Position numbers and translations under genes: made by a program. From contig PUKQ01000204.1 of the NCBI GenBank assembly GCA_003550565.1, positions 1 through 44,542 of the forward strand: 44,542 nt of DNA. The letters are read 5' to 3'. A model generated the notes under the pieces. That model saw only the letters and a list, made by a program, of their open reading frames with translations, did not search any database and was not told the DNA's origin. This stretch comes from Syntrophomonadaceae bacterium (GTDB lineage: Bacteria; Bacillota; Dethiobacteria; DTU022; PWGO01). Below, piece by piece: positions 11,316 through 37,617 of this stretch (position 1 is the stretch's first letter; each line of letters opens with the position of its first letter).

Positions 11316-11798
11316 TTGGCTGCCGTAATTGAACAGGAACAAGAATTTGATTATCAAAGAGCGGATGCGATAATTGAGCAGTTTTTGGGTAAAAAGGGGA
11401 TGATTATTCCGGCTTTGCAAAAGCTGCAGGATGAGTATGGTTACCTGCCGCGGCCGGCTGTAGAAAGAATGGCCAAGCGCATGCGGATTCCATCGAGCAA
11501 AGTTTACGGGGTAATTACCTTTTATGCTCAGTTTAAGCTATCGCCGCGCGGTAAGTATATCATCAGGGTTTGTAAGGGAACGGCCTGCCATATTCAGGGC
11601 AGTCCCAAAATTGCGGAAAGAATCCAGGAGATACTTCAGGTAGAAGATGGGGAAACTACTCCTGATCTTAAGTTCACTCTGGAGGAAGTAGCTTGTATTG
11701 GCGCCTGTGCTTTAGCACCGGTGATGATGATTAATGATGACCCGCACGGGAGGCTATCCCCCGATCGGATTAAAGAAATCCTTGATAGCTACGAATAA
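11316..11798 (+). CDS. NuoE-like [2Fe-2S] thioredoxin-fold subunit, cluster 1
   Basis: A 160-residue homologue of the 24-kDa subunit of complex I (NuoE), also called HydC or the gamma subunit in bifurcating hydrogenases and formate dehydrogenases. The start is TTG at 11316, after GGGAGGTT. An N-terminal helical region (LPALQKLQDEYGYLP-like: IPALQKLQDEYGYLP) leads into a thioredoxin-like domain with YGVITFYAQF. The [2Fe-2S] ligands appear as CKGTAC and CIGACALAP, the usual four cysteines. It is about 60% identical by eye to the cluster 2 copy at 16571. In such complexes this subunit pairs with the FMN/NADH-binding subunit, here two genes downstream. Confidence 0.92.
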   Translation: MAAVIEQEQEFDYQRADAIIEQFLGKKGMIIPALQKLQDEYGYLPRPAVERMAKRMRIPSSKVYGVITFYAQFKLSPRGKYIIRVCKGTACHIQGSPKIAERIQEILQVEDGETTPDLKFTLEEVACIGACALAPVMMINDDPHGRLSPDRIKEILDSYE

Positions 11799-11838: not shown

Positions 11839-12018
11839 GTGGAAAAATTCATAGATCCCTGCTGTGATAAGTGTACCCATACTAAAGAGAATTCCTGCAA
11901 AGATTTTGTAAAATGTTGTATGGAAGGGCCTATATGCCATGAAGACTCTTCTTGTGTTGAAAAGAGAAAGGCAATTGTAAATGAAGTGGCTCTTAATGAT
12001 AAGTTTACTATTTGTTAA
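11839..12018 (+). CDS. Small cysteine-rich protein, cluster 1 (unknown function)
   Basis: A 59-residue protein starting at GTG 11839, with GAGGAGGTGG about 5 bases before it. It carries cysteines at 8, 9, 12, 20, 26, 27, 33, 39 and 59. It is paralogous to the protein at 17055-17234: both are 59 residues, 29 of the first 46 positions are identical, and seven cysteines (8, 9, 12, 20, 26, 33, 39) are shared. Shared text includes EKRKAI after the last common Cys and GPxCHE around Cys33. Both copies sit between the NuoE- and NuoF-type genes. The cysteine pattern suggests metal or Fe-S binding, so an accessory subunit or assembly factor of the complex is an inference. I do not recognise the family. 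Confidence 0.85.
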   Translation: MEKFIDPCCDKCTHTKENSCKDFVKCCMEGPICHEDSSCVEKRKAIVNEVALNDKFTIC

Positions 12019-12121: not shown

Positions 12122-13939
12122 TTGTATGAGAAGCATTTAATGCTCTGCGGAGCTACAGGATGTCTTTCTTCCGGAGCCGGCAAAATTGTAGAAGCCTTAA
12201 GGGAAGAACTTTCTAACCGGGGAATAGAGGAAAAATATCGCGTAGTTATGTCCGGTTGTCCCGGGTTTTGTGAAGTTGGGCCGATTTTGGTAGTTTATCC
12301 GGATGAAGTTTTTTATTGCCGGTTGCAACCGGATGATATTCCCAAAATAGTGGAACAGCATCTTATAGGTGGGGAAATATACGAAAAGCGCTTGTACACC
12401 GGGCCTGATGTAGAAGCACCAGCGCGTTTTTACGACACCATTCCTTTTTACTCCAAGCAGCTTTTCAATGTTTTGCGCAACAGCGGGATAATTAACCCGG
12501 AAAGCATAGACGAGTATATAATGCGCGGTGGTTATCGCGCTTTATCACGCGCGTTGACTATGGAACAACCGGAAATCATTGATGAGGTTCTGCAATCGGG
12601 CCTACGTGGGCGTGGCGGTGCCGGATTTCCTAGTGGCAAAAAATGGGAGTTTACCTATAAAGCCCCCGGTGAAAAAAAATATATAGTGTGTAATGCTGAC
12701 GAAGGTGACCCGGGAGCTTTTATGGATCGCAGTATTTTAGAAGGAGATCCCCATGCAGTGGTGGAGGGGATGTTGATTGCCGGCTTGGCCATTGGCAGTG
12801 ATGAAGGCTATATCTATTGTCGGGCAGAATACCCCCTGGCAATTGAACGCTTAAAAATTGCTATTCAGCAAGCGGAAGAATATGGGATCCTTGGTGATAA
12901 TATATTGGGCTATGGGTTTAATTTTAAATTAAATATTAAGGAAGGAGCAGGCGCCTTTGTATGTGGTGAGGAAACAGCTCTGTTGGCATCTATCGAAGGA
13001 GAAAGGGGAATGCCCCGTCCTCGGCCGCCCTTCCCGGCAAATTATGGTTTGTGGGGTAGCCCCACCTGCATAAATAATGTGGAGACATTTGGGAATGTTC
13101 CTCTTATACTCAGGGAAAATGGAGTAGAAGAATTTCAAAAAGTGGGAACGGAAGGCAGTAAAGGAACGAAAGTTTTTGCTTTGGCGGGTAAGGTTCGCAA
13201 TACCGGCTTATGCGAAGTTCCCATGGGTACTACCATCCAAGAGATTGTTTATGATGTAGGCGGCGGCATCAAGAACAACAAGGAATTTAAGGCTGTTCAA
13301 TGTGGGGGGCCCTCGGGTGGATGTATACCCAGCGATCTCCTTGATTTGCCTATTGATTATGATTCACTGACTCAAGCCGGTGCTATTATGGGTTCCGGTG
13401 GATTGGTAGTTATGGACGAAGGAACCTGTATGGTTGACCTGGCCAATTATTTCCTTAGCTTTACTCAAAAAGAATCTTGTGGAAAATGCATCCCTTGTCG
13501 GGAAGGCACCAAACGCATGCTGGAAATACTTGATCGTATTTGCGAAGGGAATGGCAAACCGGAAGATTTGGATCGGCTTGATGAACTGGCTAATAGTATT
13601 AAAGACAGTGCACTTTGCGGATTGGGGCAGACTTGCCCTAACCCTGTATTAAGCACTATACGTTATTTTCGCCATGAATATGAAGAGCATATCAATGAAG
13701 GCTTTTGCCGCTCGGGAATTTGTAAAGACCTCTTTAATTATTACATTGATGAAGAATCTTGTAACGGTTGTGGGCGCTGCGCGAAAGCCTGCCCGGTAGA
13801 AGCTATTACCGGTGAAAAGAAAGAATGTCATGCTTTAGATGTGGAGTTGTGCACCAAATGTGGCAGTTGTGTGGATAAGTGTCGTCAAAATTCAATTCGG
13901 ATTACACGTGTAGGGAGGGAAGCCGATGTCAGCAATTAA
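12122..13939 (+). CDS. NuoF-like NADH/FMN-binding subunit with extra Fe-S domains, cluster 1
   Basis: A 605-residue flavoprotein subunit that would exchange electrons with NAD(H). It starts at TTG 12122 after AGGGAGGTAAG. An N-terminal thioredoxin-like [2Fe-2S] domain (CGATGCL; SGCPGFCEVGP) precedes the NuoF core with GLRGRGGAGFPSGKKW (FMN/NADH glycine-rich loop), CNADEGDPGAFMDR and KEGAGAFVCGEETAL. The N3-type cluster motif ESCGKCIPCREG follows with a distal Cys. The C-terminus adds two [4Fe-4S] ferredoxin motifs (CNGCGRCAKACP; CTKCGSCVDKC). This layout is that of HydB/FdhF-type subunits of bifurcating hydrogenases and formate dehydrogenases. It overlaps the next gene by 14 bases. Confidence 0.93.
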   Translation: MYEKHLMLCGATGCLSSGAGKIVEALREELSNRGIEEKYRVVMSGCPGFCEVGPILVVYPDEVFYCRLQPDDIPKIVEQHLIGGEIYEKRLYTGPDVEAPARFYDTIPFYSKQLFNVLRNSGIINPESIDEYIMRGGYRALSRALTMEQPEIIDEVLQSGLRGRGGAGFPSGKKWEFTYKAPGEKKYIVCNADEGDPGAFMDRSILEGDPHAVVEGMLIAGLAIGSDEGYIYCRAEYPLAIERLKIAIQQAEEYGILGDNILGYGFNFKLNIKEGAGAFVCGEETALLASIEGERGMPRPRPPFPANYGLWGSPTCINNVETFGNVPLILRENGVEEFQKVGTEGSKGTKVFALAGKVRNTGLCEVPMGTTIQEIVYDVGGGIKNNKEFKAVQCGGPSGGCIPSDLLDLPIDYDSLTQAGAIMGSGGLVVMDEGTCMVDLANYFLSFTQKESCGKCIPCREGTKRMLEILDRICEGNGKPEDLDRLDELANSIKDSALCGLGQTCPNPVLSTIRYFRHEYEEHINEGFCRSGICKDLFNYYIDEESCNGCGRCAKACPVEAITGEKKECHALDVELCTKCGSCVDKCRQNSIRITRVGREADVSN

Positions 13940-16328
13940 TCTAACCATAGACGGTCAGCAAGTGGAGGTGGAACCTGGCACCACAATTTTGCAAGCAGCG
14001 GAAAAGCTGGGTATTGATATACCTACTTTCTGTTATGATCCGGACTTGACACGTAATGCTGCTTGCCGGATGTGCGTGGTAGAAGTGGAAAAAGCGCGGG
14101 CTTTAGTGGCGTCGTGTAGTGCACCTGTAGCGCCTGATATGGTGGTGCACACAGAAACTGAGCGAACTCGCAAAGCCAGGGAGATTATTTTGAGGCTAAT
14201 CTTAGCCAACCATTATTTAGATTGTGTTACCTGCGAAAAAACCGGGGAATGCAAGTTACAGGATTATTGTTACCGCTATGGCATTTCTTCCAGTGATTTC
14301 GTGGGGGCTACCAAAGAACTTTCCCTTGATGATACCAACCCCTTCTTTGTGAGGGACATGAACAAGTGTCTCCTTTGCGGACGCTGCGTGGGTAAGTGTC
14401 AAAACGTAAACGGCGCCGGGGCAATTGATTTTACCCAGCGGGGTTTTAAATCGAATGTAGGGACTCCTTTTGGAGATCCGATTGAAAATTCTACCTGTGA
14501 TTTTTGCGGTATGTGCATTGAAGCCTGCCCTGTAGGGGCCTTGGTTCCTAAATCCCGTATAGGCCGAGGGCGTCCTTGGGAAATAGAAAAGGTCAAAACT
14601 ATCTGCCCTTACTGTTCTACCGGATGTTCACTGGAACTTCATGTAAATATAGAGTCGGATAGTGAAGAAGAGATGGTTATTGATGCTACTGCAGATGAAG
14701 AGGCACCGGTAAACCAGGGTAGAATTTGTGCCAGGGGAAGTTTCGGTTGGGATTTCATCCATAATGAACACAGATTAACCATGCCTTTGGTTAAACAAGA
14801 TGGAGTTTTTGTAGAAGTAGAGTGGGAAGAAGCGCTGGAAATTATTGCGGAGAAATTACAGGAGCTAAAAATTAATTTTGGGGATGATTCTCTGGGTGGT
14901 TTAGTTTCCAGCCGGCTTTCCAATGAAGAAATTTATCTTTTCCAAAAATTATTGCGCTCCTGGGGAACCAATAATGTAGATCATATTTCTCACTACCATT
15001 ATAGTTCTTCACCGCATACAACGGAGGCTTTATTCAAAAGCGGTGTGATGGGCAGTGACATAGATGATCTGAACAATGCAGACTTGATTATGGTGGTTAA
15101 TTCCCATCTTGCAAGTTCACATCCGGTACTTAATTACCGGTTGCGAGAGGCGGCCCGTAATGGGACCAAAGTAATTGCCATCAATCCGGAGGAACAGGAT
15201 GATGCTGATCCTGCACACCTTTACATTTCCCCGGAAATTGGTGCGGATGAATTTCTACTGAATGGTTTGATCAATGTAATCATTGCCGAAAATATAGCTC
15301 AGGGTGAAGGTGCAAAAGACAGCGCAGTTTTTGAGGATATTAAAAAAGCTGTAAGCAAGAATACAGCCGAACAAGTAGAAAAAGTAACGGGTGTATCTGT
15401 TTCAGATATCCAGGAAGCAGCCCGCAGCTATGCCAATGCTGAACGTCCTTTAATACTTTTTGACTCTGCAAACTTTAAAAAGGGCTCGGGTTTGAAGGGC
15501 GTAAGAGCTATGTTAAGGTTGGCCGCTGTCGCCGGTAAAAATAGTGGTCCTCCCGCTGGAGTAAATTTCCTGCCGGACTTTAATAACTCTCAAGGTGCCT
15601 GCCTTATGGGAGCGCTGCCGAATTTCCTTCCTTCTCTGCAAAGTATAGAGGATAATAAGGCCAGAGAGAGTTTTTCCAAGGCATGGGCAACCGAGTTGAA
15701 TGCCCAACCCGGGTTAACAGCGCAAGAAATGATAGAGCAAGCATTTAAAGGCACACTTCAGGGCATGTTTATCGCGGGAGAAAACCCGGTTGTAGAGAGC
15801 AGTGAACAAGATTATGTCGTGGAAGCATTGCAAAATATAGAATTTTTAGTTGTCCAGGATTTGTTCCTAACTGAAACTGCTCAGCACGCTGATGTGGTGC
15901 TTCCTGCTGCTGCATTTGCAGAAAAATTAGGAACGTATATTAATGTGGAAGGACGGGTACAGCTTAGTTATCCTGCTTTAGAGCCTCCAGAAGATGCCAT
16001 GCCAGGTAGTGAAATTTTAGCTAATCTGGCAGATTACCTGGGAATGGATTGGTCTTCTTTCTTAATGGAAGATGTATTCCGGGAAATGGCTTCATTGTCT
16101 TCGGCTTTGGAAGGAATGAATTATGAGCAGTTGGGCTGTGTAAATAATCCTGTGGCTAAAGATTCCTGGCAGGACATTTTGCAGGAAATAGATAATGGAT
16201 TGGCAGCAGAAGATGAAAAGGGTTTAAAATTGCTTGAAGATGTGGAACTTAATTTTCCATACGCTACAGGTAAGGGTAAAGGGTCGATGGCTTTTCAATT
16301 GGCAGAAATAAATAATCGGGCACTTTAA
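13926..16328 (+). CDS. Formate-dehydrogenase-derived, NuoG-like subunit lacking catalytic residues
   Basis: An 800-residue paralogue of the selenoprotein encoded at 19098-21764. The N-terminus is intact: [2Fe-2S] cysteines, a His-Cys cluster (HYLDCVTC), two ferredoxin motifs (CLLCGRCVGKC; CDFCGMCIEACP) and the CPYCSTGC cluster of the molybdopterin domain. The catalytic site is not intact. By alignment with the copy-2 enzyme, Sec346 corresponds to His358, the following His to Tyr359, conserved Arg540 to Pro550 and Lys258 to Arg270. It ends near the point where copy 2 begins its C-terminal cofactor-binding domain, which is missing. The long open frame and retained Fe-S motifs argue against a pseudogene. 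I infer an electron-transfer or scaffold role like NuoG rather than formate oxidation. Confidence 0.88.
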   Translation: MSAINLTIDGQQVEVEPGTTILQAAEKLGIDIPTFCYDPDLTRNAACRMCVVEVEKARALVASCSAPVAPDMVVHTETERTRKAREIILRLILANHYLDCVTCEKTGECKLQDYCYRYGISSSDFVGATKELSLDDTNPFFVRDMNKCLLCGRCVGKCQNVNGAGAIDFTQRGFKSNVGTPFGDPIENSTCDFCGMCIEACPVGALVPKSRIGRGRPWEIEKVKTICPYCSTGCSLELHVNIESDSEEEMVIDATADEEAPVNQGRICARGSFGWDFIHNEHRLTMPLVKQDGVFVEVEWEEALEIIAEKLQELKINFGDDSLGGLVSSRLSNEEIYLFQKLLRSWGTNNVDHISHYHYSSSPHTTEALFKSGVMGSDIDDLNNADLIMVVNSHLASSHPVLNYRLREAARNGTKVIAINPEEQDDADPAHLYISPEIGADEFLLNGLINVIIAENIAQGEGAKDSAVFEDIKKAVSKNTAEQVEKVTGVSVSDIQEAARSYANAERPLILFDSANFKKGSGLKGVRAMLRLAAVAGKNSGPPAGVNFLPDFNNSQGACLMGALPNFLPSLQSIEDNKARESFSKAWATELNAQPGLTAQEMIEQAFKGTLQGMFIAGENPVVESSEQDYVVEALQNIEFLVVQDLFLTETAQHADVVLPAAAFAEKLGTYINVEGRVQLSYPALEPPEDAMPGSEILANLADYLGMDWSSFLMEDVFREMASLSSALEGMNYEQLGCVNNPVAKDSWQDILQEIDNGLAAEDEKGLKLLEDVELNFPYATGKGKGSMAFQLAEINNRAL

Positions 16329-16570: not shown

Positions 16571-17038
16571 TTGTCCAGAGAAGAATATCGAAAAATTCTA
16601 GAGCCTTACCAGGGTGAGCGAAAAGAATTAATACCTGTTCTTCAAGCGGTCCAGAACGAATTTGGGTACTTGCCGGAAGAGTCGTTTGCTATTATTGCTG
16701 AATATTTAGGAGCGCCTGAAAGTAAAATTTATGGGGTGGCTACTTTTTATGCCCAGTTTCACTTTAGTCCCCGTGGCAAATACATAATAAGGATGTGCCG
16801 CGGAACTGCCTGTCATGTTAAAGGAGTTTCTAAAGCTGCTGAAAAAATGCGGGACTTATTAGGCATAAGTGTGGGAGAAACTACTTCTGATTATAAATTT
16901 ACTTACGAGGAAGTGGCTTGCATTGGGGCTTGTGGACTTGCGCCGGTGATGATGATAAATGATCGGACTTACGGAAAGTTGACTCCGGATAAAATAAAAG
17001 AAATAATTGATAGTTATTATGAACCTGCAGAGGCATGA
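16571..17038 (+). CDS. NuoE-like [2Fe-2S] subunit, formate dehydrogenase cluster 2
   Basis: A 155-residue paralogue of the protein at 11316, starting at TTG 16571 with GGAGGGAG upstream. It has the same order: LIPVLQAVQNEFGYLPE, YGVATFYAQF, then CRGTAC and CIGACGLAP for the [2Fe-2S] cluster. It would pass electrons between the NuoF-type flavoprotein and the Fe-S chain of the formate dehydrogenase. It is the first gene of the E / small Cys / F / FdhA operon. A homology-based role in an NAD-linked, possibly electron-bifurcating, formate dehydrogenase is established for the family; bifurcation here is inference. Confidence 0.92.
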   Translation: MSREEYRKILEPYQGERKELIPVLQAVQNEFGYLPEESFAIIAEYLGAPESKIYGVATFYAQFHFSPRGKYIIRMCRGTACHVKGVSKAAEKMRDLLGISVGETTSDYKFTYEEVACIGACGLAPVMMINDRTYGKLTPDKIKEIIDSYYEPAEA

Positions 17039-17054: not shown

Positions 17055-17234
17055 ATGGAAAGGTTTATTGATCATTGCTGTGAAAAATGTGAGCATACTA
17101 AAGATAATCCTTGTGCCCAATTTGTAGAATGCAGGCTTTCAGGGCCATTATGCCATGAAAGTCAGTCCTGTGCTGAGAAGCGCAAAGCAATTATTGAAAA
17201 GTATAGCCACAGTGAAGGTTTCCAACAACATTAA
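17055..17234 (+). CDS. Small cysteine-rich protein, cluster 2 (unknown function)
   Basis: A 59-residue protein starting at ATG 17055 (a TTG lies three bases earlier), with AAAGGAGAAGG before it. Cysteines are at 8, 9, 12, 20, 26, 33 and 39, all shared with the paralogue at 11839. Also conserved are FID before the first Cys pair, KC and HTK around Cys12, FV before Cys26, GP and HE around Cys33, and EKRKAI after Cys39. The divergent C-terminus lacks cysteine. Conservation in sequence, length and position in both operons points to a real gene tied to the NuoE/NuoF module. It may bind zinc or an Fe-S cluster; its role is not known to me. Confidence 0.88.
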   Translation: MERFIDHCCEKCEHTKDNPCAQFVECRLSGPLCHESQSCAEKRKAIIEKYSHSEGFQQH

Positions 17235-17259: not shown

Positions 17260-19101
17260 GTGTACGACAAACAAATTTTGATCTGTGCCGGTACCGGTTG
17301 TATTGCTTCCGGTGCTACGGATGTCAGAGATGCTTTAGAAGAAGAGCTTAAAAAGCATGGGTTGCAAAATAAAGTTCGGATAATTCTTTCGGGATGCCAC
17401 GGTTTTTGTGAAAAAGGTCCCATTTTTATAGTGTACCCGGAAGATATTTTTTATTGTGGAGTTACTGCGGAAGATATGCCGGAATTAGTCGAAGAGCATA
17501 TGGTGAACGGTAATACAGTGGAAAGGCTTTTATATAAAGATCCCGTTACGGAAGAAGCCGTGACTTCTCATGAAGATATCCCTTTCTATAAACACCAAAA
17601 GAGAATTATTCTGCGTAATTGTGGCGTTATAGATCCGGAAAATATTGATGAATATATTATCCGGGGTGGATACCTGGGCTTGCGGAAAGCTCTCAATATG
17701 GAGTCCGGCGAAATAATTTCTAATATTAAAGACTCAGGGCTGCGTGGATTGGGCGGAGCCGGATTTCCTGCCGGCAGGAAGTGGGAAACTGCTTATAATG
17801 TAGCTGCCGATAAAAAATATGTGGTTTGTAACGCCGATGAGGGTGACCCGGGTGCATTTATGGACCGCAGTATTTTGGAAGGGGATCCTCATTCTGTACT
17901 GGAAGGGTTAATGATCGCCGGAAAGGCGATAGGTAGCGATGAAGCGTATGTTTATGTCAGAGCGGAGTACCCTCTGGCAGTGCGGCGGTTGCGGAAAGCA
18001 ATAGCCCAGGCTGAGGAGTACGGTCTTATTGGTGATAACATTCTTAATTCCGGTTTCAATTTTACTATAAATGTTAAAGAAGGAGCCGGAGCATTCGTTT
18101 GTGGAGAATCTACTGCTTTAGTTATGTCTATAGAGGGCAAGAGAGGAATGCCCAAGCCATTGCCACGTCCCCGCACTACAACTGCAGGGCTATGGGATAA
18201 GCCAACTTTGCTGAATAATGTTAAAACCTTATCGGTAGTTCCACAGATTATTAATAAAGGAGTTGAATGGTTCACCAGCGTTGGTACGGAGAAATGTAAA
18301 GGAACCGCAGTATTTGCCCTTACCGGAAAAACTAATCGGAGCGGGCTTATTGAAGTCCCTATGGGGACAAAACTGGGTGATATTATCCATGAAATTGGCG
18401 GTGGGGTCCCCGAAGGAAGAAATTTCAAAGCGGTTCAGACCGGTGGGCCTTCAGGCGGTTGCCTGCCTGCAAGTAAGTTGGATTTGCCCGTTGACTTTGA
18501 TACTCTCATAGAGGCCGGTTCCATGATGGGTTCCGGCGGAATGGTGGTTTTAGACGATTCTACTTGTATGGTTGATGTGGCCAGATATTTTTTGGATTTT
18601 ACTTATGCAGAATCTTGCGGCCAGTGCGTCCCCTGCCGATTGGGGACACACCAGATGTTGCAAATACTAAACGATATTTGTGAAGGCAGGGGGCGTGAAG
18701 ATGATATAGAACTACTTCTGGAATTGGGTGACTATATCATAAAAGGTTCAATCTGTGGATTGGGAAAAACAGCTCCCAACCCGGTTTTGAGCACTATAAA
18801 ATATTTTCGGGAAGAATATGAGCAGCATATCAGGGAAAAGCACTGTGTTGCCCTGGCGTGTAAGGAACTTATTTTATACCGGATAGATCAAGAAAAATGC
18901 AGTGCATGTGGTCGTTGTAGAAAGCAATGCCCGGCTGAGGCTATTATTGGCGAGAAAAAAGTTCCCCATGAGATAGACCAATCAAAATGCACTAAATGTG
19001 GGATTTGTTATGAAAATTGCCCCGAAAAGTTTGATGCAGTAGAAATAATTACCGGTGAGGAAAATATACCGGCTTTGAGTGGAAAGGAGGGGAACGAATG
19101 A
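17260..19101 (+). CDS. NuoF-like NADH/FMN-binding subunit of the formate dehydrogenase, cluster 2
   Basis: A 613-residue flavoprotein subunit paralogous to the one at 12122. The frame is open upstream to 17155 but overlaps the small Cys-rich gene. The GTG at 17260 follows AAAGGAGGGGG and gives MYDKQILICAGTGC, aligned with copy 1, so it is chosen. It has the N-terminal [2Fe-2S] domain (SGCHGFCEKGP), GLRGLGGAGFPAGRKW, CNADEGDPGAFMDR, KEGAGAFVCGESTAL, the ESCGQCVPCRLG cluster motif and two C-terminal ferredoxin motifs (CSACGRCRKQCP; CTKCGICYENCP). Together with NuoE it would connect NAD(H), and possibly ferredoxin, to formate oxidation or CO2 reduction. Its stop overlaps the FdhA start (ATGA). 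Confidence 0.93.
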   Translation: MYDKQILICAGTGCIASGATDVRDALEEELKKHGLQNKVRIILSGCHGFCEKGPIFIVYPEDIFYCGVTAEDMPELVEEHMVNGNTVERLLYKDPVTEEAVTSHEDIPFYKHQKRIILRNCGVIDPENIDEYIIRGGYLGLRKALNMESGEIISNIKDSGLRGLGGAGFPAGRKWETAYNVAADKKYVVCNADEGDPGAFMDRSILEGDPHSVLEGLMIAGKAIGSDEAYVYVRAEYPLAVRRLRKAIAQAEEYGLIGDNILNSGFNFTINVKEGAGAFVCGESTALVMSIEGKRGMPKPLPRPRTTTAGLWDKPTLLNNVKTLSVVPQIINKGVEWFTSVGTEKCKGTAVFALTGKTNRSGLIEVPMGTKLGDIIHEIGGGVPEGRNFKAVQTGGPSGGCLPASKLDLPVDFDTLIEAGSMMGSGGMVVLDDSTCMVDVARYFLDFTYAESCGQCVPCRLGTHQMLQILNDICEGRGREDDIELLLELGDYIIKGSICGLGKTAPNPVLSTIKYFREEYEQHIREKHCVALACKELILYRIDQEKCSACGRCRKQCPAEAIIGEKKVPHEIDQSKCTKCGICYENCPEKFDAVEIITGEENIPALSGKEGNE

Positions 19102-21764
19102 TTAATTTAACTATTAATGGGGTGAAAATAGAAGCTGAAGAGGGAATGACAATATATGAAGCTGCCCAAAAAGCGGGTATATATATACCCGTTCTATGCT
19201 ATCATCCTGACCTTTCTACTTTTGGTGCCTGTAGAGTCTGCATGGTGGAAGCTAACGGAAATTTGGTGACTGCCTGCCGGCTTCCGGTTGAAGAAGGAAT
19301 GGAGGTGCAGACAAATACCAGAGAGGTGCAGGAAGTTCGCCTGTTCAATGTAGAGTTAATTTTGGCCAACCATAATCAGGACTGCCAAACATGTGTCCGC
19401 AATAATAACTGTAAGTTGCAAGAAGTATCTTCATTTGTAGGTATCGACCTTCAAAGGATGGAAAGAATAAGGCGTTTTCAGGTAGAGACTCCCGTGGATG
19501 ATAGTAATCCTTTTTTCCATCGGGACCATTCCAGATGTATTCTTTGCGGAATTTGTATCCGAGCTTGTGAAGAAGTTAATGGAGTAGCGGCATTGGATTT
19601 TGCTTTTCGCGGTTATAACACAGCAGTTAGTGTAGCTGGAAATAAGCCCCTTACCGAGTCTTCTTGTGAATCTTGTGGTGAATGTATGGAAAGGTGCCCT
19701 ACGGGAGCTTTGGCTCCGGTAAAACAGAAAACCCCCGAGCGAGAAGTAGCAAGTGTTTGCCCTTATTGTGGAGTGGGTTGTAACATTTTCCTGGGAGTGC
19801 GGGGTAAGCAAATAGTAGGGGTGAGAGGAGACAAAGAAAGTCCTGTTAACCATGGTGAGCTTTGCGTGAAAGGTAGATTTGGCTATGATTTTGTTAATCA
19901 CCCCGAAAGGCTGCAAAAGCCTTTGATTAAGAAAAAAGGTGAATTTGTCGAAGCTTCATGGGATGAAGCTTTAGATTTAGTAGCCGAGCGTTTTAAAGGG
20001 ATTACGGATAAAAACGGACCTAATGCTTTGGGAGCTCTTAGCTCGGCCCGTTGTTCCAATGAAGATAATTACCTCTTTCAGAAATTAATCCGGAGCCTGG
20101 GAACCAATAACGTAGATCACTGTGCCCGGCTTTGACACGCGCCAACAGTAGCCGGTCTGGCTACAGTATTCGGGAGCGGCGCAATGACAAACAGCATTGG
20201 AGAAATAACCGGAGCTGATGCTCTGTTAATTATTGGTTCCAATACTACTGAGACTCATCCGGTAATTGGCTACCGGGTGCGTAGGGCGGTTCGTCAGGGG
20301 ACCAAACTGATTGTGGCGGATCCCCGCCGGATAAATTTAGCTACTCATTCCGCCCATATTCACCTTCAGCAAAAACCGGGCACTGATGTTGCCTTACTGA
20401 ATGGGATAATTAATGTCATCATTGAAGAGAATTTGGTGGATCAATCTTTCATTGAGAAGCGCACTGAAGGCTATGATAAGTTGAAAGAAACTGTGGCAAA
20501 ATATACCCCTGAATATGTGGCAGAAATTACCGGTGTTGCTGCTGAAAATATCCGGAAGGCGGCCAGGCTTTATGGGCAGGCAGAGAATGCTGCTATCCTT
20601 TATACCATGGGTATCACGCAGCATTCTTTCGGTACAAATAATGTTTTGTCTATTGCCAATTTGGCCATGGTTACCGGCAATTTAGGCAAACCTTCCACCG
20701 GGGTTAATCCCCTGCGGGGGCAAAACAATGTGCAGGGAGCCTGTGATATGGGAGCATTGCCCAATGTTTTTACCGGGTACCAAAAAGTAGCTACCGAGGA
20801 GGCTCGAAATAAATTTGTTGAGGGGTGGGGAATAAAAGTTGATATTAATCCCGGCCTTACAGTTACGGAAATGTTTGATGGGGCGGATAATGGCGATATT
20901 AAGGGCATGTATATCATGGGAGAAAATCCTGTAGTGAGCGATGCCAATTCTTCTCATGTAGTAGAAGCCCTGGAGAATCTTGAATTTTTGGTAGTTCAGG
21001 ATATTTTTCTTACCGAAACTGCCCGGTATGCTGATGTGGTTCTGCCGGCGGCTTCTTTTGCAGAGAAAATAGGGACTTATACCAACACGGAGCGTCGGGT
21101 GCAATTAAGCCATGCTGCTGTTGAATCTCCGGGTGAGGCTCGCCCGGATTGGGAAATAATTACCAGACTGGCTGCCAAAATGGGGTTTGAATGGAATTAT
21201 GCAAATGCCGAAGATATATTTAAAGAAATTGCTTATCTAACGCCCAGCTATGGTGGAATGACTTATGAACGCTTAAAAGAAAAAGGTTTGCAGTGGCCTT
21301 GTCCGGATGAAAAACATCCCGGTACCACTTACTTGCACAGCGATGAATTTAAACGGGGATTGGGGCTATTTAGTGCTGTAGAATACCAGCCTCCGGCGGA
21401 AGAAACGGATAACGATTATCCTTTGATTCTTACTACAGGACGCAATCTTTTCCATTATCATACCGGAACCATGACCCGTCGTTCTGAAGGTCTGTTGGAA
21501 TACCGTCCTGAAGAATTGGTGCAAATTAATCCCGATGATGCGGCGCAATTAAAAATAGAAGATGGTGATCAGGTAGAGGTAATTTCTCGCCGGGGGAAAG
21601 TAAAGGCAAAAGCTTCTCTTACCGAGGTGGTTATGCCCGGCGTAGTTTTTATGACTTTCCATTACCATGAAGCCCTTACTAATCTTCTAACCAACAGCGC
21701 TCTTGATCCCGTAGCCAAAACTCCGGAACTTAAAACCTGTGCCGTTAAAGTAATAAAGGCATAA
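19098..21764 (+). CDS. fdhA: Selenocysteine-containing formate dehydrogenase catalytic subunit
   Basis: The gene is one 888-residue reading frame with an in-frame TGA at 20133-20135 (codon 346) read as selenocysteine. The residues around it, DHCARL-Sec-HAPTVAG, are the formate dehydrogenase active site. The sequence continues in frame after the TGA with all family motifs. The enzyme oxidises formate or reduces CO2 at a Mo or W bis-pterin centre. The N-terminus has a [2Fe-2S] domain, a His-Cys cluster (HNQDCQTC), two ferredoxin motifs ([23 protein letters not shown]) and the CPYCGVGC cluster, followed by Lys258. Arg540 lies in [20 protein letters not shown]. The C-terminal pterin-binding domain is present. 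Standard gene callers would split it into 19098-20135 and 20184-21764. Confidence 0.97.
20133..20164 (+). promoter_or_regulatory. Selenocysteine UGA codon with bacterial SECIS hairpin
   Basis: After TGA (20133-20135), GTAGCC (20148-20153) and GGCTAC (20159-20164) form a perfect 6-bp stem around the 5-nt loop GGTCT. A GGUCU-type loop at this distance is also the key feature of the E. coli fdhF SECIS recognised by SelB (established knowledge). It supports recoding of this codon. Confidence 0.9.
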
Positions 21765-21943: not shown

Positions 21944-22780
21944 ATGGAGCAAAATTATAATTATGCTCCGCGAGAGATCATCAAAGTTAAAGAAGGTATT
22001 CCCGAAAAGATGGAGGATAAAGTAGCCAGGGAAGAACCGGTGACCATTTTTTTAAATGATAAAGAGTTGGTCACCATGATGGCTACTCCGGTGGATTTAG
22101 AATATTTAGCCCTGGGTTTTTTATGTTCTGAAGGTTTTTTAGAAAGCAAAGACGATGTATTAAAGCTCCATGCTGATATAGAAAAAGGCTTGATATATGT
22201 TAATAGTAAAGAAGAAAAAGCAGCGTGGGCTGAGCAATTATACGGGCGCCGTACCATCACCACCGGTTGTGGAAAAGGCTCAACTTTTTTTAGCGCGTGG
22301 GATTCCTTGCGCAGCAGGCCTGCAAATGATGAATTTCGGGTTGATGCTTCCTGGATTCTTTTCCTGGTTAAATCTATGCAAGAAAAGGCACAAATATTTA
22401 GAGAAACGGGTGGTGTTCACAGTGCAGCCCTTGGCGATGAGAAAGGGATCCAAATATTTACCGAAGATGTGGGCAGACATAATGCTTTAGATAAAATTGT
22501 GGGTCAATGTTTTTGGAAAGATATTTCCCTAACAGATAAAGTACTTATTTCCAGTGGACGGATTTCATCGGAAATGATGTTAAAGGCTGCCAAGCTGCAA
22601 GTCCCGGTGGTAGTTTCTCGAGCAGCTCCTACTACCCTGGGCGTTGATTTGGCGGAAAAAATGTCTATTACCATGGTGGGATTCGCCCGAAATAAACGCC
22701 TCAATATTTACAGCTGCCCGGAAAGAATAGTAATGGATAATTCCAGTAAGGGAGGAAGTTGCGCCGATTATGAACCGTGA
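21944..22780 (+). CDS. fdhD: Formate dehydrogenase accessory sulfurtransferase FdhD
   Basis: FdhD carries sulfur from the IscS-type desulfurase to the molybdenum cofactor of formate dehydrogenase and is needed for its activity. The 278-residue protein has TTGCGKGS with Cys109. In E. coli this place holds a CxxC pair; here only one cysteine is present. Other family blocks are FCSEG-type text (FLCSEGF), GGVHSAAL, EDVGRHNALDKIVG, SSGRISSEMMLKAA, VSRAAPTTLGVDLA and GFARNKRLNIYS. A TTCCGGAGGTGG ribosome site precedes the ATG. It lies 180 bases after fdhA, past a hairpin, so it may be partly co-transcribed. Its position supports an active formate dehydrogenase in copy 2. Confidence 0.95.
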   Translation: MEQNYNYAPREIIKVKEGIPEKMEDKVAREEPVTIFLNDKELVTMMATPVDLEYLALGFLCSEGFLESKDDVLKLHADIEKGLIYVNSKEEKAAWAEQLYGRRTITTGCGKGSTFFSAWDSLRSRPANDEFRVDASWILFLVKSMQEKAQIFRETGGVHSAALGDEKGIQIFTEDVGRHNALDKIVGQCFWKDISLTDKVLISSGRISSEMMLKAAKLQVPVVVSRAAPTTLGVDLAEKMSITMVGFARNKRLNIYSCPERIVMDNSSKGGSCADYEP

Positions 22781-27129: not shown

Positions 27130-28251
27130 ATGAAGTTATATGAGTATATGGGCAAAGATTTATTTGCTCATTATGGGGTAAAAGTAGAATTATCACGGAT
27201 GGTGAAAACTCCTGCCGAGGCCCGTAGTGCGGCGGAAGAAATGGGGCCGGTAGTGGTAAAAGCTCAGGTTCTCTCCGGAAAGAGGGGAAAAGCCGGGGTT
27301 ATTTCTATTGTAGATAGCCCGGATGAAGCATACCGGGAAGCGGAGCGTATTTTACAGCAAGAAGTAGATGGGGAACAGGTAAAGTGTTTGTTGGTGTCGC
27401 AAAAAGTAATTATACATCAGGAACTATACCTGGCTATAACAGTAGATGGAAAAAGTCGCCGTCCAATTATCCTTGCTTCGTCCCATGGGGGTATGGATGT
27501 AGAAGAGGTGCCCGAAGGTGGAATGATAAAATGGCCTTTGGATATAAGTATGGGGTATCTCCCTTTTATGGGAAGGGAAATTGGGTTTCGTATGGGGTTG
27601 CAGGGTGCACTAGTTCACCGTTTTAGTGATCTATTGGGAAAACTTTATCATATGTTTCGGGCTACTGATGCCGAGCTGGTAGAGATAAACCCTCTGGCAG
27701 TTTGTGGTGAAGAGTTAATTGCCATTGACTCCAAGGTGAATATAGACGATGACGCTTTACAGCGGCAGCCTGAGTTGCCAAGAGTTCAAGAAAAAACAGC
27801 CCTGGAGAAAAAAGCTCAGGAGATGGATATAGCCTATGTGGATCTGGGTGGTGATATTGCTGTTATGGCCAATGGCGCCGGTATTACCATGGCCACTCTT
27901 GATCTGGTCCAGTATAACGGAGGGACTCCGGCTAACTTTCTTGATTTTGGTGGAGGCGCCGGAGTGGAAAAAACTTCTCAGGCAATGGAACTCATGCTGG
28001 GTACAAATCCAAAAGTAATATTAGTTAATATTTTTGGGGGAATTACCCGCTGTGATGATGTGGCCCGTGCTTTTGCTTCTGTTAAAGAAAACAAGGATAT
28101 TAATATACCGGTATTTTTCCGGCTGGTGGGAACCAATGAAGATGAGGGGCGGCAGGTGCTTAGGGAAATCGGTATTGAAGCATACAGTTCCATGGAAGAA
28201 GCGGTCCGCCGGGCTGTAGAAGCTTCTATAGGCAAGGAGGAGGTTAATTAA
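27130..28251 (+). CDS. sucC: Succinyl-CoA synthetase beta subunit SucC
   Basis: The 373-residue beta subunit binds nucleotide and forms succinyl-CoA from succinate, or makes ATP in reverse. AAGGAGGTAG precedes the ATG. The ATP-grasp N-terminus (KLYEYMGKDLFAHYGV; VVKAQVLSGKRGKAGVI) and C-terminal FLDFGGGAG and VNIFGGITRCD are family hallmarks. The ATP or GTP preference is not evident. Its stop overlaps the sucD start by one base (TAATG). The gene begins an operon that runs on into methylmalonyl-CoA mutase, so in this organism it probably serves the succinate/propionate route. Confidence 0.95.
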   Translation: MKLYEYMGKDLFAHYGVKVELSRMVKTPAEARSAAEEMGPVVVKAQVLSGKRGKAGVISIVDSPDEAYREAERILQQEVDGEQVKCLLVSQKVIIHQELYLAITVDGKSRRPIILASSHGGMDVEEVPEGGMIKWPLDISMGYLPFMGREIGFRMGLQGALVHRFSDLLGKLYHMFRATDAELVEINPLAVCGEELIAIDSKVNIDDDALQRQPELPRVQEKTALEKKAQEMDIAYVDLGGDIAVMANGAGITMATLDLVQYNGGTPANFLDFGGGAGVEKTSQAMELMLGTNPKVILVNIFGGITRCDDVARAFASVKENKDINIPVFFRLVGTNEDEGRQVLREIGIEAYSSMEEAVRRAVEASIGKEEVN

Positions 28252-29117
28252 TGTCTATTTATATAAATGAAAACACAAGGGTTTTGGTGCAGGGAATAAC
28301 CGGTAATCAGGGTTCATTTCATACGCGGCAGATGCTTGCTTACGGCACCGGTATTGTAGCCGGAGTTTCCCCGGGAAAGGAAGGGCAGCAGGTCGAAGGA
28401 GTGCCGGTTTATAATTCTGTATTTGCTGCTCTCCGAAAACACGAAGCTGAGGCTACTATTCTTTTTACTCCGGCTCCTTATGCCCGTGATGCGGCCCTGG
28501 AGGCCATAGAAGCGGGAATAAAGATAATTGTCATGATTCCGGAAAATATCCCTCTGCATGATGCCATGGAAATAATGCATTTTGCCCATTCCCGCGAAGC
28601 TGTTATTGTGGGGCCAAACACATTTGGTTTGGTATCTTCGGGAAAATGTAAGATAGGCATTATGCCGAATCGTATTTTTAATCCTGGGCCGGTAGGCGTG
28701 GTTTCTCGCAGCGGCACTCTTTGCTACGAAATAGTAGATCGCCTGGCAGAAAACGGATTGGGAACTACTACTGTAGTGGGTCTGGGTGGAGATCGTATAG
28801 TCGGGCTTGATTTTATTGAGGTGCTCACTAAATTTTCGCAAGATCCGGAAACAAAAGCAGTAGTGATGGTGGGGGAAATTGGTGGAAGTGCCGAAGAAGA
28901 AGCAGCTGCTTTTATAGAAAATAATATATCTCAGCCGGTGGTAGCATTTTTAGCAGGCAAATCGGCTCCTCCCGGAAAACGGATGGGGCATGCCGGTGCT
29001 ATAATTGAAGGGAGCCGAGGCACTTATGATAGTAAAGTGGAAGCCCTGGTTTCGTGTGGAGCAAGGGTGGCCGAACTTCCTTCTGAAATCCCCGAGTTGA
29101 TCAAACAGGTGCTTTAA
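28251..29117 (+). CDS. sucD: Succinyl-CoA synthetase alpha subunit SucD
   Basis: A 288-residue subunit. The CoA-binding Rossmann region (VLVQGITGNQGSFHTRQM) is at the start. GPNTFGLVS and VSRSGTLCYE are recognised family blocks. The phosphorylated histidine is His247 in RMGHAGAIIEGS. All key residues for a functional SucCD pair are visible. It is translationally coupled to sucC. Confidence 0.95.
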   Translation: MSIYINENTRVLVQGITGNQGSFHTRQMLAYGTGIVAGVSPGKEGQQVEGVPVYNSVFAALRKHEAEATILFTPAPYARDAALEAIEAGIKIIVMIPENIPLHDAMEIMHFAHSREAVIVGPNTFGLVSSGKCKIGIMPNRIFNPGPVGVVSRSGTLCYEIVDRLAENGLGTTTVVGLGGDRIVGLDFIEVLTKFSQDPETKAVVMVGEIGGSAEEEAAAFIENNISQPVVAFLAGKSAPPGKRMGHAGAIIEGSRGTYDSKVEALVSCGARVAELPSEIPELIKQVL

Positions 29118-29175
29118 TGTTGTTTTTGGGGACATTTAAGGAAAATCTATTAACTTAGGATAAAGGAGGTTTTCC

Positions 29176-30852
29176 ATGTTTGATAAGCGTAAACTGCAAG
29201 AAATTCAGGCGAAGAAAAAGGAAGTGGATGAAGAAATAGTAAATAATTTACAGAAGCGTCCTGAAAGGAAAAAGCAATTTAAACTAGACAGCGAGCTCCC
29301 TGTGGAAAGGTATTATACTCCTTTGGAAATAGAAGAAACAGATTATCTGCGGGATCTTGGCTTCCCCGGAAAATATCCCTATACCCGGGGAGTACAAACT
29401 ACCATGTACCGGGGAAAATTGTGGACAATGCGCCAGTATGCCGGTTTTGGTTCTGCCGAGGAAACCAACCGGCGTTTTCATTATTTGCTTGAACAGGGGC
29501 AAACCGGTCTCAGTATAGCCTTTGATCTGCCTACTCAAATCGGCTATGATTCTGACCATCCCATGGCTAAAGGTGAAGTTGGCCGGGTAGGGGTAGCTAT
29601 TGACTCTCTCAAAGATTTAGAAGTTCTTATGGAGGGCATTCCCCTCGATAAAGTTAGCACTTCCATGACAATTAACTCACCGGCAGCCATACTTTTGGCA
29701 ATGTACCTGGTTATTGCCGAAAAACAGGGAATAAAGTGGGAAACACTGAATGGAACTATTCAGAATGATATTCTTAAAGAATATGTAGCCCGCGGTACTT
29801 TTATTTTTCCCCCGCGGGAATCAATGCGACTGATTGTGGATGTGTTTGCTTTTGCCCGGGAAAATTTGCCTCGCTGGAACACTATTAGTATTAGCGGTTA
29901 TCATATCCGTGAAGCCGGATCTACAGCTGTTCAGGAAATTGCTTTTACTCTTGCTAATGGTATAGCTTATGTGCAGGCGGCTTTGGAAGCCGGCCTTGAT
30001 GTTGATGAATTTGCCCCGCGCCTGTCTTTTTTCTTTAATGCCCATGTTAATTTCCTGGAAGAGATAGCCAAGTTTAGGGCAGCCCGGCGTATTTGGGCCC
30101 GCATTATGAAAGAGCGCTTTGGAGCCAAAAATGAGCGTTCTATGATGCTCCGCTTCCATACTCAAACAGCCGGGTGCAGCCTTACTGCTCAGCAACCGGA
30201 AGTAAACGTGATCAGGGTAGCTTTCCAGGCGCTAAGCGCAGTATTGGGCGGAACGCAGTCTCTTCATACCAATTCCCGGGATGAAGCCCTGGCTTTACCC
30301 AGTGAAGAGTCTGTGCGCATTGCACTGCGTACTCAGCAGGTTATAGGGCATGAAATTGGTGTTGCCGATACTGTTGATCCTCTGGGTGGCTCTTATTACA
30401 TTGAATCACTTACCAATCAAATGGAAGAAAGTATCATGGACTATCTGGAGAAAATTGATCAGATGGGTGGAGCCATTGAATCCGTGGAAAAAGGATACAT
30501 GCAAAAAGAAATTCAACAAAGTGCTTATCGCTATCAAAAGGATATAGAAAATGACGAAAAGGCTGTGGTGGGAGTTAACCGTTTTGTCACCGAGGAAGAT
30601 GTTGATATGGAATTGCTTCGCGTAACGCCGGCTGTGGCCGAGCAGCAGAAAAAGCGCCTTGCTGAAGTCCGTGAAAGCAGGGATGAGCAAAGAGTAGAAG
30701 AGTCACTTTCTCAATTGCGCGAAGTTGCTTCTTCACAGGATAACTTGCTGCCTTCCATTATTGAAGCGGTGAGATCTTACGCTACATTGGGAGAAATATG
30801 CGGCATTCTTAGGGAAGAGTTGGGAGAATACCAGCAACAAGCATTAATCTAA
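29176..30852 (+). CDS. Methylmalonyl-CoA mutase, large (catalytic) subunit
   Basis: A 558-residue barrel subunit that rearranges succinyl-CoA and (R)-methylmalonyl-CoA using adenosylcobalamin. It has [20 protein letters not shown], the substrate-binding segment, plus [30 protein letters not shown], and the conserved [15 protein letters not shown] and [13 protein letters not shown]. It lacks a C-terminal B12 domain, which is supplied by the separate 131-residue gene immediately downstream; this split form is common in Firmicutes and archaea. GGAGG precedes the ATG. Related isomerases (isobutyryl-CoA or ethylmalonyl-CoA mutases) share much of this sequence, but the adjacent succinyl-CoA synthetase and epimerase support methylmalonyl-CoA. 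Confidence 0.93.
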
Positions 30853-30899
30853 TGTATTTATAAAGTTTAATCTTATTCGTCTAAAGGGGGAAAGCTTCC

Positions 30900-31295
30900 A
30901 TGGCCTCAGCGCCTATACGTGTGTTAGTGGGAAAAGTGGGACTTGACGGGCATGATCGGGGGGCAAAAGTAGTAGCCCAAGCTCTGAGAAATGCCGGTAT
31001 GGAAGTAATCTATACCGGTTTGCGCCAAACTCCTGAAACAATTGTAGAAACAGCTTTACAGGAAGATGTTCATGTTATCGGTATAAGTATGCTTTCCGGA
31101 GCTCATAATGAATTATTACCGGAAATACCCAAGCTGCTAAAAGAGAATAATGCCGAAGATGTGATTGTTGTAGCAGGTGGAATTATCCCCAAGGAAGACA
31201 TTCCACCATTAAAAAAAGCCGGCATTGCAGAAATTTTCACGCCTGGAGTTTCTACGCAAGATATTGTGGAATTTATCAAAGAGCATGTAAAATAA
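30900..31295 (+). CDS. Methylmalonyl-CoA mutase, small B12-binding subunit
   Basis: A 131-residue cobalamin-binding domain. The D-x-H-x-x-G motif is Asp16, His18 and Gly21 in GLDGHDRG, where His18 is the lower axial ligand of cobalt. SMLSGAH and [10 protein letters not shown] are the other B12-pocket blocks. It pairs with the large subunit encoded 47 bases upstream; GGGGGAAAG precedes its ATG. Length and motifs match the stand-alone C-terminal domain of the mutase. Confidence 0.95.
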
Positions 31296-31320
31296 ATTTA
31301 AGGAAGGAGATGAATTTTCT

Positions 31321-31725
31321 ATGGCGGAAAAAGTTGATCATATCGGCATAGCTGTTAACAATATAGAAGAAGCGTTAAAGTTTTATAGAGACCAACTTGG
31401 CCTAAACATGAACGGCATAGAAGAAGTACCCGAGCAAAAAGTAAAGGTTGCTTTTCTACCCGTTGGGGAAAGCAAAATTGAGCTGCTTCAGTCTACCGAC
31501 CCCGAAGGAGCTATTGCCAAATATATTAACACCCGGGGGGAAGGCATTCAACACGTAGCCCTGCGGGTGGATAACATTCGGGAAAAACTTGCCGAACTTA
31601 AAGCCCAAGGGGTAAAGCTTATAGATGAAGAACCTCGCCGTGGGGCCGGTGGGTCACAAATTGCTTTTATCCATCCTAAGTCCACCGGTGGTGTATTATT
31701 GGAATTATGTGAACGTGATACTTAA
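31321..31725 (+). CDS. mce: Methylmalonyl-CoA epimerase
   Basis: A 134-residue vicinal-oxygen-chelate protein that interconverts the (R) and (S) forms of methylmalonyl-CoA. Metal-ligand candidates are His7 (VDHIG), His78 (GIQHVALRV) and Glu128 (LLELCE), with the family text [15 protein letters not shown] and [31 protein letters not shown] precedes the ATG. It connects the mutase, which uses one stereoisomer, to the carboxyltransferase that follows in the same operon. Confidence 0.94.
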
Positions 31726-31801
31726 GATATAGTGTGGAAGAAAATTGTTAACAACCCTGTCTTCTTAAAAACAAATTTATGGGGAGGTGTATTTTTTTAA
31801 T

Positions 31802-33343
31802 ATGGAAAATAAATTAACTCACCTGCAGGAAAGGCGAGAGACCACCCTTGCAGGAGGAGGGGAGAAAAAACGGCAGGCTCAACATGAAAAAGGGAAGAAA
31901 ACTGCCAGGGAACGGTTGGAATTTCTCATGGATGAAGGCAGCTTTGTGGAGTTGGGAGTATTTACACAGGGAGATTTAGAAGAAGCAAGTTCGTTGGAGA
32001 TTAAAAATCCCGGTGAAGGCGTAGTTACCGGTTATGGTACCATAGAGGGACAAACCATATATGTATTTGCCCAAGATTTTACCGTGGCCGGCGGTTCCCT
32101 GGGAGAAGCCCATGCTTCCAAGATATGCCGGGTGCTTGACTTGGCGGCACAAAACGGAGCTCCCGTGCTGGGGCTTAATGATTCCGGAGGGGCCCGCATT
32201 CAGGAAGGTGTATACGCCCTCAATGGATATGGAGATATTTTTTATCGTAATACCATCTATTCGGGGGTGATCCCGCAGTTGTCGGTGATTATGGGGCCAT
32301 GCGCAGGGGGAGCGGTATATTCTCCGGCTCTTACCGATTTTGTTTTTATGGTCCAGCAAAGCAGCTATATGTTTATCACCGGTCCCCAGGTCATAAAAGC
32401 CGTGACGGGGGAAGAAGTAACTCCTGAGGAGCTAGGAGGCCCGCAGGCTCACACCAGGGATAGTGGTGTAGCTCATTTTGAAGACGATTCGGAAGAAAAA
32501 TGCTTGGAAAGAGTAAAAAAACTGCTGAGTTATATTCCCCCTAATAACCTGGAAGATCCACCTCGGCAGGAACCTAAAGAACCGGAACTTGATGCTGAGG
32601 AGCTTGTAAATTTGGTTCCTGAAGATACCAATAAAGGATATGATGTGAAAGAAATTATTCGGCGGGTTACTGACGGCAGTGATTTTTTTGAGGTACACGA
32701 GGAGTATGCCCAAAATGCAGTAGTAGGTTTTGCCCGCCTTGATGGGCATACTGTGGGAGTTGTAGCTAATCAGCCGCAAATAATGGCCGGTTGTCTGGAT
32801 ATTAATTCGTCGGATAAAATATCCCGGTTCGTGCGTTTTTGTGATTGTTTCAATATCCCGCTGGTAACCTTAGTGGACGTTCCCGGTTACTTGCCGGGAG
32901 TGCAACAAGAATGGGGCGGTATTATAAGGCATGGAGCTAAAATACTTTATGCTTATGCGGAAGCTACCGTACCACAGGTTACTGTTATCCTGCGAAAGGC
33001 TTATGGGGGAGCTTACCTGGCTATGAATTCCCAGGCTATGGGCGCAGATATTTCCCTGGCATGGCCTACTGCAGAGATTGCCGTTATGGGACCGGAGGGA
33101 GCAGTAAACATTGTGAACCGCAAGGAGATTGAACAAGCGGAAAACCCCCGGGAAGAAAGGGAAAAATTAGTAAAAAATTACAAAGAAAAGTATGCTAATC
33201 CTTATATTGCTGCTGCCAGGGGATGGGTTGATGATGTCATCGATCCCCGTCAAACAAGAAATAAATTAATTCGGAATTTAGAAATGCTGCGTTCAAAGAG
33301 GGAAAATCGCCCGCTGCGCAAACATGGTAATATGCCGTTGTAA
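31802..33343 (+). CDS. mmdA: Methylmalonyl-CoA carboxyltransferase/decarboxylase alpha subunit
   Basis: A 513-residue carboxyltransferase. The frame opens at GTG 31787, which overlaps GGGGAGG; ATG 31802 gives the family start and is preferred, though the spacing (14 bases) is long. The family blocks are KGKKTARERLEFLMDEGSF, GGSLGEAHASKICRVLD, NDSGGARIQEG, GPCAGGAVYSPALTDF and, in the C-terminal half, PGYLPG and RKAYGGAYLAMNS. These are shared by the decarboxylase alpha subunit, the 12S subunit of transcarboxylase and the beta subunit of propionyl-CoA carboxylase. No biotin carrier, gamma or membrane beta subunit is nearby, so the exact complex is open. It is the last gene of the sucC operon. 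Confidence 0.88.
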   Translation: MENKLTHLQERRETTLAGGGEKKRQAQHEKGKKTARERLEFLMDEGSFVELGVFTQGDLEEASSLEIKNPGEGVVTGYGTIEGQTIYVFAQDFTVAGGSLGEAHASKICRVLDLAAQNGAPVLGLNDSGGARIQEGVYALNGYGDIFYRNTIYSGVIPQLSVIMGPCAGGAVYSPALTDFVFMVQQSSYMFITGPQVIKAVTGEEVTPEELGGPQAHTRDSGVAHFEDDSEEKCLERVKKLLSYIPPNNLEDPPRQEPKEPELDAEELVNLVPEDTNKGYDVKEIIRRVTDGSDFFEVHEEYAQNAVVGFARLDGHTVGVVANQPQIMAGCLDINSSDKISRFVRFCDCFNIPLVTLVDVPGYLPGVQQEWGGIIRHGAKILYAYAEATVPQVTVILRKAYGGAYLAMNSQAMGADISLAWPTAEIAVMGPEGAVNIVNRKEIEQAENPREEREKLVKNYKEKYANPYIAAARGWVDDVIDPRQTRNKLIRNLEMLRSKRENRPLRKHGNMPL

Positions 33344-35893: not shown

Positions 35894-35952
35894 CCTGACA
35901 AATTTTTATATTCAACTTTAATAAGGAGTGGGCCTGAATCAACGCAAAAAAA

Positions 35953-36876: not shown

Positions 36877-36879
36877 TAG

Positions 36880-37617
36880 ATGCTCAATAAAAAACAATTG
36901 GAAATGCTGCAGTACAGCTTAACGCCAAAATTTATGGCTACCCGTGATCGGGAACAAAATATTAATCTGGTTATGATCAGCAGCATCGATTATTATCAAG
37001 AAATGATCGTTTTTAGCAACCTATTTATGTGGAAGACTTTTTATAATTTACAGGCAGATCCTTATGTGAGCATCCTGGTTATTGATGCCAATTTGAATTA
37101 CTTTAACATAGAGGGAAAATTTAAAGGGTTCGAAGAGACAGGAGAACTGGTTGATTATTTGAATAGAAGCGAATTTACCAGGTATAACGCCTATACCGGC
37201 ATCAGAAGTGCCGGTAAGATAGAAATAATTAGTATCAGCCCGGTAAAAAAGATGTCTTTTGCCTGGTTACTGTCAAAGCATTTAGCCAGCCGGGTTTTAT
37301 TTCGCAGTAGCGCCCCCCATTTTCCTCGGGCTGTAGCTGAAAAATTTTCCAGGCTTAAAAGTATTAAAGTTGTTTCCTTTCAAGATAATGAAAAAAATAT
37401 GTTCGTAATTCCTTTACCTGCATTTAACGTTAGCGGAGATTATCTTCTTTCTCCGGTAAGGCTTCCTGCCGGTAAAAAGTACGCCGCTAACGTAATTACT
37501 CCGGAAATTGTGTCGTTTCAGGTTAAAGGCACTATGGTTCCCCAGGAGTTGAAAGTAGAAGAAGTATATGCTGCAGGTCCTCCAGTGGCAGGCAAGCTTA
37601 TCTATTCCCTTACATGA
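36880..37617 (+). CDS. FMN-binding split-barrel-like protein, function unknown
   Basis: A 245-residue protein starting 4 bases after the activase. The N-terminal half (LTPKFMATRDREQNINLVMISS and DPYVSILVIDANLNYFNIEG-like text) resembles the pyridoxamine-5-phosphate oxidase/FMN split-barrel fold. No catalytic residues can be assigned. The C-terminal 100 residues are not recognised. Position at the end of the glycyl radical operon suggests a linked role, but this is inferred from context only. Confidence 0.55.
   Translation: MLNKKQLEMLQYSLTPKFMATRDREQNINLVMISSIDYYQEMIVFSNLFMWKTFYNLQADPYVSILVIDANLNYFNIEGKFKGFEETGELVDYLNRSEFTRYNAYTGIRSAGKIEIISISPVKKMSFAWLLSKHLASRVLFRSSAPHFPRAVAEKFSRLKSIKVVSFQDNEKNMFVIPLPAFNVSGDYLLSPVRLPAGKKYAANVITPEIVSFQVKGTMVPQELKVEEVYAAGPPVAGKLIYSLT

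Follow-up and report, generated by a model that had tools for sequence, protein, structure and literature searches.

HndB, of the Hnd hydrogenase, is a thioredoxin-like [2Fe-2S] protein that represents an N-terminal segment of NuoF encoded by a small gene of its own between NuoE and NuoF. The stretch of DNA analyzed here, hereafter the window, is the 44,542-nucleotide contig PUKQ01000204.1 of a Syntrophomonadaceae bacterium; it carries two Nuo/Bfu-type clusters [Table 1] in which a small gene occupies the same site, but here NuoF retains its thioredoxin-like part and the separate piece is a different, Cys-rich domain, referred to below as the CCxxC domain. The Bfu family, to go by the accessible text of its description by Schut et al. 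(2022; PMC9304861), was proposed to carry out electron bifurcation involving NAD(H), ferredoxin and one further substrate. Relative to the BfuABC/HydABC complexes and the Type 1 Fdh-Bfu enzymes defined in that text, NuoF and NuoE of the window share the defining domains, which in BfuB are FMN-binding 51K, SLBB, NADH_4Fe-4S and a C-terminal Fer4 pair and in BfuC a NuoE-type domain (PF01512, PF10589, Fer4 and PF01257 all score over cut-off, and SLBB, at 26.3 bits, just below its cut-off of 27), and the BfuA of cluster 2 has a formate dehydrogenase domain. The CCxxC domain, present here, goes without mention in the same accessible text.

Table 1. Genes of the two Nuo/Bfu-type clusters of the window and of the accessory gene that follows them; the start given for the second NuoF is the most likely one.
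Feature	Coordinates	Strand	Evidence
NuoE/BfuC-type [2Fe-2S] thioredoxin-like subunit, cluster 1	11316..11798	+	PF01257 182 bits; NF005722 over cut-off
CCxxC small protein, copy 1	11839..12018	+	59 aa, GTG start; NF040902.1 65.4 bits
NuoF/BfuB-type FMN/NADH subunit, cluster 1	12122..13939	+	PF01512, PF10589, Fer4
NuoG/BfuA-type subunit with FDH-like pterin domain, cluster 1	13926..16328	+	PF13510, PF10588, PF04879, PF00384
NuoE/BfuC-type subunit, cluster 2	16571..17038	+	PF01257 180 bits
CCxxC small protein, copy 2	17055..17234	+	59 aa, ATG start; NF040902.1 68.5 bits
NuoF/BfuB-type subunit, cluster 2	17260..19101	+	Sequence; start comparison with relatives
Formate dehydrogenase alpha/BfuA, cluster 2	19098..21764	+	Two ORFs matching TIGR01591 positions 2-128 and 146-672
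FdhD, formate dehydrogenase accessory sulfurtransferase	21944..22780	+	TIGR00129 218.8 bits, cut-off 140.9

The solved chains closest to the NuoF of cluster 1 are the bifurcating HydB/StnB/NfnB subunits, and its aligned residues include the equivalents of A. mobile C438, H525, C531 and C536 of the B2/Zn site (numbering from PMC8880783), with the same H-x5-C-x4-C recurring in the other BfuB genes of the genome. This site likewise binds metal in the same subunit, but it lies near the C-terminal bridge of NuoF and is additional to the CCxxC domain. The second NuoF, which is 52% identical to a naturally fused CCxxC-NuoF protein (L083), most likely starts at the GTG at 17260, after AAAGGAGGGGG, rather than at the mechanically called ATG at 17155. 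The formate dehydrogenase alpha gene of cluster 2 is split into two mechanical reading frames (19098-20135 and 20184-21764) by a TGA (20133-20135) that stands in frame where the catalytic selenocysteine is encoded, a position at which homologues have Cys. A selenocysteine insertion hairpin sought after the TGA folded no better than shuffles (z -0.7), so that the Sec assignment rests on active-site homology. Since this TGA-containing formate dehydrogenase stands at its end and fdhD follows, the best reading of cluster 2 is that of a Type 1 Fdh-Bfu.

The NuoG/FdhA-like subunit of cluster 1, in which Pfam searches did not detect PF01568, has a His-Tyr pair (DHISHYHY) at the position of the catalytic (Cys/Sec)-His; most of its orthologues read SYTRHCH, where Cys-His is kept in an altered context, and one reads SYTKHSH. 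Given the His-Tyr at the catalytic site, this subunit probably does not oxidize formate, and it may, by analogy, be a pterin-domain subunit with lost formate chemistry similar to StnC, for which an inactive FdhF domain was reported (PMC10482914). A third FDH-like complex is found elsewhere in the genome (contig C111; L146:2-5968) with the gene order G-E-F and without CCxxC; its NuoF is fused to a GltD-like domain and its pterin site is changed (NHIDNGSSLYNAATRAGL).

The preliminary description of the small gene of cluster 1 had proposed a 59-codon frame with a GTG start, and this was confirmed; the frame ends in TAA and a GAGGAGG lies a few bases 5' of its start. Pairwise realignment of the two copies gave 30 identities over 46 N-terminal positions with both starts read as Met, or the originally reported 29 with GTG read as Val, together with the seven shared cysteines of the initial account. 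The placement between NuoE and NuoF, said to be kept in both clusters, was found for each copy. Of third codon positions 56% differ, compared with 28% of first and 21% of second positions, and the median dN/dS of CCxxC genes (19 unsaturated pairs) is ~0.10. This two- to threefold excess of variation at position 3 and the low dN/dS, together with matches of the two copies to the NF040902 model (E-values of 3e-18 and 3e-19), argue against a chance reading frame, and the 59-codon gene is genuine, conserved and under purifying selection.

The suggestion that these proteins belong to an unrecognized family did not hold. Both copies score above the curated cut-off (45 bits) of NF040902.1, an NCBIfam model named NuoF_pre_CCxxC ("CCxxC motif-containing NuoF prefix domain-containing protein"), and cover 49-51 of its 53 positions, and the model matches 28 of 28 aligned members (E <= 0.001). 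The preliminary description had offered a match to an already characterized family as grounds for abandoning its reading; the family proved to be catalogued, but the model has no function attached to it. The window proteins resemble the family in the CCxxC motif and in their place directly before NuoF; whereas the model is named for a prefix of NuoF, the window and its own class have instead a separate protein, encoded from start to stop by a gene of its own. NF040902.1 is a domain model, and fusion to NuoF is suggested by its name, not required by the model; in the window the domain is encoded by a separate gene with its own stop, in a different reading frame from NuoF. The CCxxC family is thus one that is already catalogued and functionally unstudied, and the window proteins are separate-gene members of it. 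Neither the two copies nor their relatives had a significant match in Pfam, and a phmmer search of the PDB with CCxxC proteins returned no hits. A search of the PDB with the family profile gave a best E-value of 1.5, to the unrelated SWI1, and hence no match in solved HydABC, Stn, Nfn, Wor or any other PDB chain; our literature search found no paper naming the CCxxC domain.

Ten residues (C8, C9, C12, C20, C26, G30, P31, C33, H34 and C39) are invariant with gap-free spacing in all 78 distinct sequences compared, among which H14 and C27 vary. The invariant set places eight candidate ligands, seven Cys and one His, within 32 residues in the order CC-x2-C-x7-C-x5-C-x6-CH-x4-C, an arrangement suggestive, at the level of sequence, of two four-ligand metal sites. 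Two metal ions would be bound, the adjacent residues of C8-C9 and of C33-H34 being shared out so that each pair gives one ligand to each site. Such a count is typical of two-zinc modules with seven Cys and one His, among them RING, PHD, LIM and MYND. The ligand order of MYND (C6-H-C) is the same as that of the CCxxC domain, but the latter differs from all four in its spacing, with adjacent Cys-Cys and Cys-His, and neither Pfam nor fold comparison matched it to them. Structural Zn2+ would be the most likely metal and an Fe-S cluster a less likely one. The second of these options corresponds to an alternative in which the domain carries an Fe-S cluster (e.g. a [4Fe-4S] cluster bound by some of the Cys and perhaps a His) and contributes a further electron-transfer step near the N-terminal [2Fe-2S] of BfuB, for example by providing formate-dehydrogenase-type enzymes with a ferredoxin docking or exit site of their own. 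We hold this to be possible, if on the unlikely side: seven invariant Cys inside a cluster-rich redox complex, attachment to a thioredoxin-like [2Fe-2S] domain and restriction to some bifurcating NuoF clades speak for it, but no Fer4, Fer2 or other Fe-S family profile of Pfam matched the CCxxC proteins, adjacent cysteines depart from the CxxCxxC pattern common in ferredoxins, and the ligand count is the one familiar from zinc modules. That the identity of a bound metal is beyond what sequence alone can settle is illustrated by the 3Cys+1His (B2/Zn) site of HydB, which was disputed between two structures, one assigning it to Zn (PMC9499530) and the other to a [2Fe-2S] cluster (PMC8880783).

AlphaFold2 modeled the separate protein alone with low confidence (pLDDT 61, pTM 0.37). 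In the natural fusion L083 the domain reached a pLDDT of ~60-77 and was predicted as a two-helix unit (helices 23-29 and 37-50) followed by a short linker and then the thioredoxin-like domain, whose first strand is at 58. Foldseek returned no fold relative for the CCxxC domain, and with the whole fused model its matches were HydB/StnB/NfnB, subunits of bifurcating enzymes whose structures are solved. Owing to the low model confidence and this negative Foldseek result we make no claim as to the fold of the domain, and the docking and metal geometry put forward here are to be taken as guesses for the same reasons.

Scores over the curated cut-off were obtained in 36 of the 399 genomes of a phylum-wide sample and in 54 of 98 genomes of the window's class; none of 14 control genomes has the domain, and the genome of the window has its two copies and no others. 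A record titled Desulfovibrio (L076) was rejected as evidence of spread to another phylum, its contig number and coordinates being identical to those of a genome of the window's order (G459); it is probably a mislabelled MAG, and because the two represent the same contig position we confine our claims to the phylum. In the window's class the domain is nearly always a separate open frame of 59-91 codons with its own start, its own stop and, mostly, a Shine-Dalgarno-like site, the distance from stop to NuoF being roughly 25-113 nt and the reading frames mixed. In other families of the phylum the frame mostly has 530-1130 codons because the domain is fused to NuoF; in these fused frames, of 534-1128 aa, it is always the N-terminus of NuoF. 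Two exceptional arrangements were dismissed upon inspection: the apparent NuoE-CCxxC fusion of L074 (a 206-aa frame), whose extra 147 residues are a chance frame overlapping NuoE, and the apparent separate form of L129, which is a fused gene with a stretch of masked bases inside it.

An unrooted tree of 70 NuoF proteins grouped 35 of the 36 rows scored as separate in one clade (SH-aLRT 97), the 36th being the masked fused gene of L129, and spread the fused rows over several deep clades; two of the rows lacking the domain sit on long branches and are of unsure placement. The simplest reading is that one gene was split in the ancestor of the class's NuoF clade, a direction that we infer from a tree without a root. 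That the domain is separate in only one NuoF clade might also be expected of a vestige cut off from NuoF and now decaying, but a dN/dS of ~0.10, the fact that none of the eight putative ligands varies in the separate form, and retention of start, ribosome-binding site and stop make this explanation highly improbable. The small size, Cys-rich composition and operon location of the protein would likewise befit an assembly or maturation factor, absent from the finished enzyme, whose task is to bring NuoF a cluster or metal or to hold one for it. We consider such a role improbable, since a domain permanently fused to NuoF in many lineages across the phylum is more easily seen as a stoichiometric part than as a turnover factor.

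The association with NuoE and NuoF envisaged in the preliminary description extends to many other genomes. Over 68 distinct loci, that of the window included, the domain in every case either immediately preceded NuoF or formed one protein with it, and NuoE was upstream in all but four, two of which are at contig edges and two of which have NuoE fused to FdhA. The earlier interpretation is in this sense partly supported, strongly so for the NuoE/NuoF association and not for the family being unrecognized. The third subunit of these loci is a formate dehydrogenase alpha with Sec (35 loci) or Cys (8 loci), a degenerate FDH-like protein (13), an [FeFe]-hydrogenase (4) or is unresolved or truncated (8). 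As the four hydrogenase-type loci carry the domain, the link to formate dehydrogenase is strong and not exclusive. Four other BfuB-type NuoF genes that stand in other contexts in the window's genome are without the CCxxC domain, which indicates that the bifurcating core as such can do without it. As a separate observation, the CCxxC-NuoF of locus L103 runs into a GltD-like FAD domain that replaces the ferredoxin-like C-terminus, a second locus (L123) shows the same lengths, and in both the next gene is an FdhA with NuoE fused at its C-terminus.

We regard it as probable that the CCxxC protein is a small subunit that binds metal within a soluble complex of the NuoEFG-like (Bfu/HydABC-type) kind, representing the detached form of a domain that in most relatives outside the window's class is joined to the N-terminus of NuoF/BfuB. 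The protein would pack on the N-terminal thioredoxin-like [2Fe-2S] domain of BfuB and stabilize or dock the arm formed by the FDH-type BfuA, a location proposed because the fused form joins NuoF directly at that domain. Made as a polypeptide of its own from the same operon, it would be expected to join the complex stoichiometrically; the pattern of fusion and separation is what leads us to favor a stoichiometric part of NuoF over an assembly factor. A more far-reaching proposal, that the CCxxC domain represents a kind of redox or metal module not described before (e.g. a Cys7His Fe-S center), which adapts the bifurcating BfuBC core to FDH-type partners by providing an electron exit or a dock for ferredoxin that all solved HydABC, Stn and Nfn structures lack, strikes us as doubtful.

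The remainder of the window includes, in a row at 27130-33343, genes for a succinyl-CoA ligase, a methylmalonyl-CoA mutase in two parts, an epimerase and a methylmalonyl-CoA decarboxylase alpha-like protein, corresponding to the methylmalonyl-CoA route as in syntrophic propionate oxidizers. Adjoining them (33512-37617) are a PFL2-family glycyl radical enzyme, for which no equivalog cut-off was reached, and its activase; the 245-aa ORF after the glycyl radical enzyme genes (36880-37617) had no match in NCBIfam.

In anaerobes that live as syntrophs or acetogens, electron-bifurcating formate dehydrogenases serve to couple formate with NADH and ferredoxin, and in the loci sampled the CCxxC domain marks mainly formate-dehydrogenase-type complexes of Bacillota. 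Purification or heterologous expression of such a complex without the 59-codon gene could yield a defective enzyme. The separate form in turn makes the function of the domain testable through a small gene, with NuoF left untouched.
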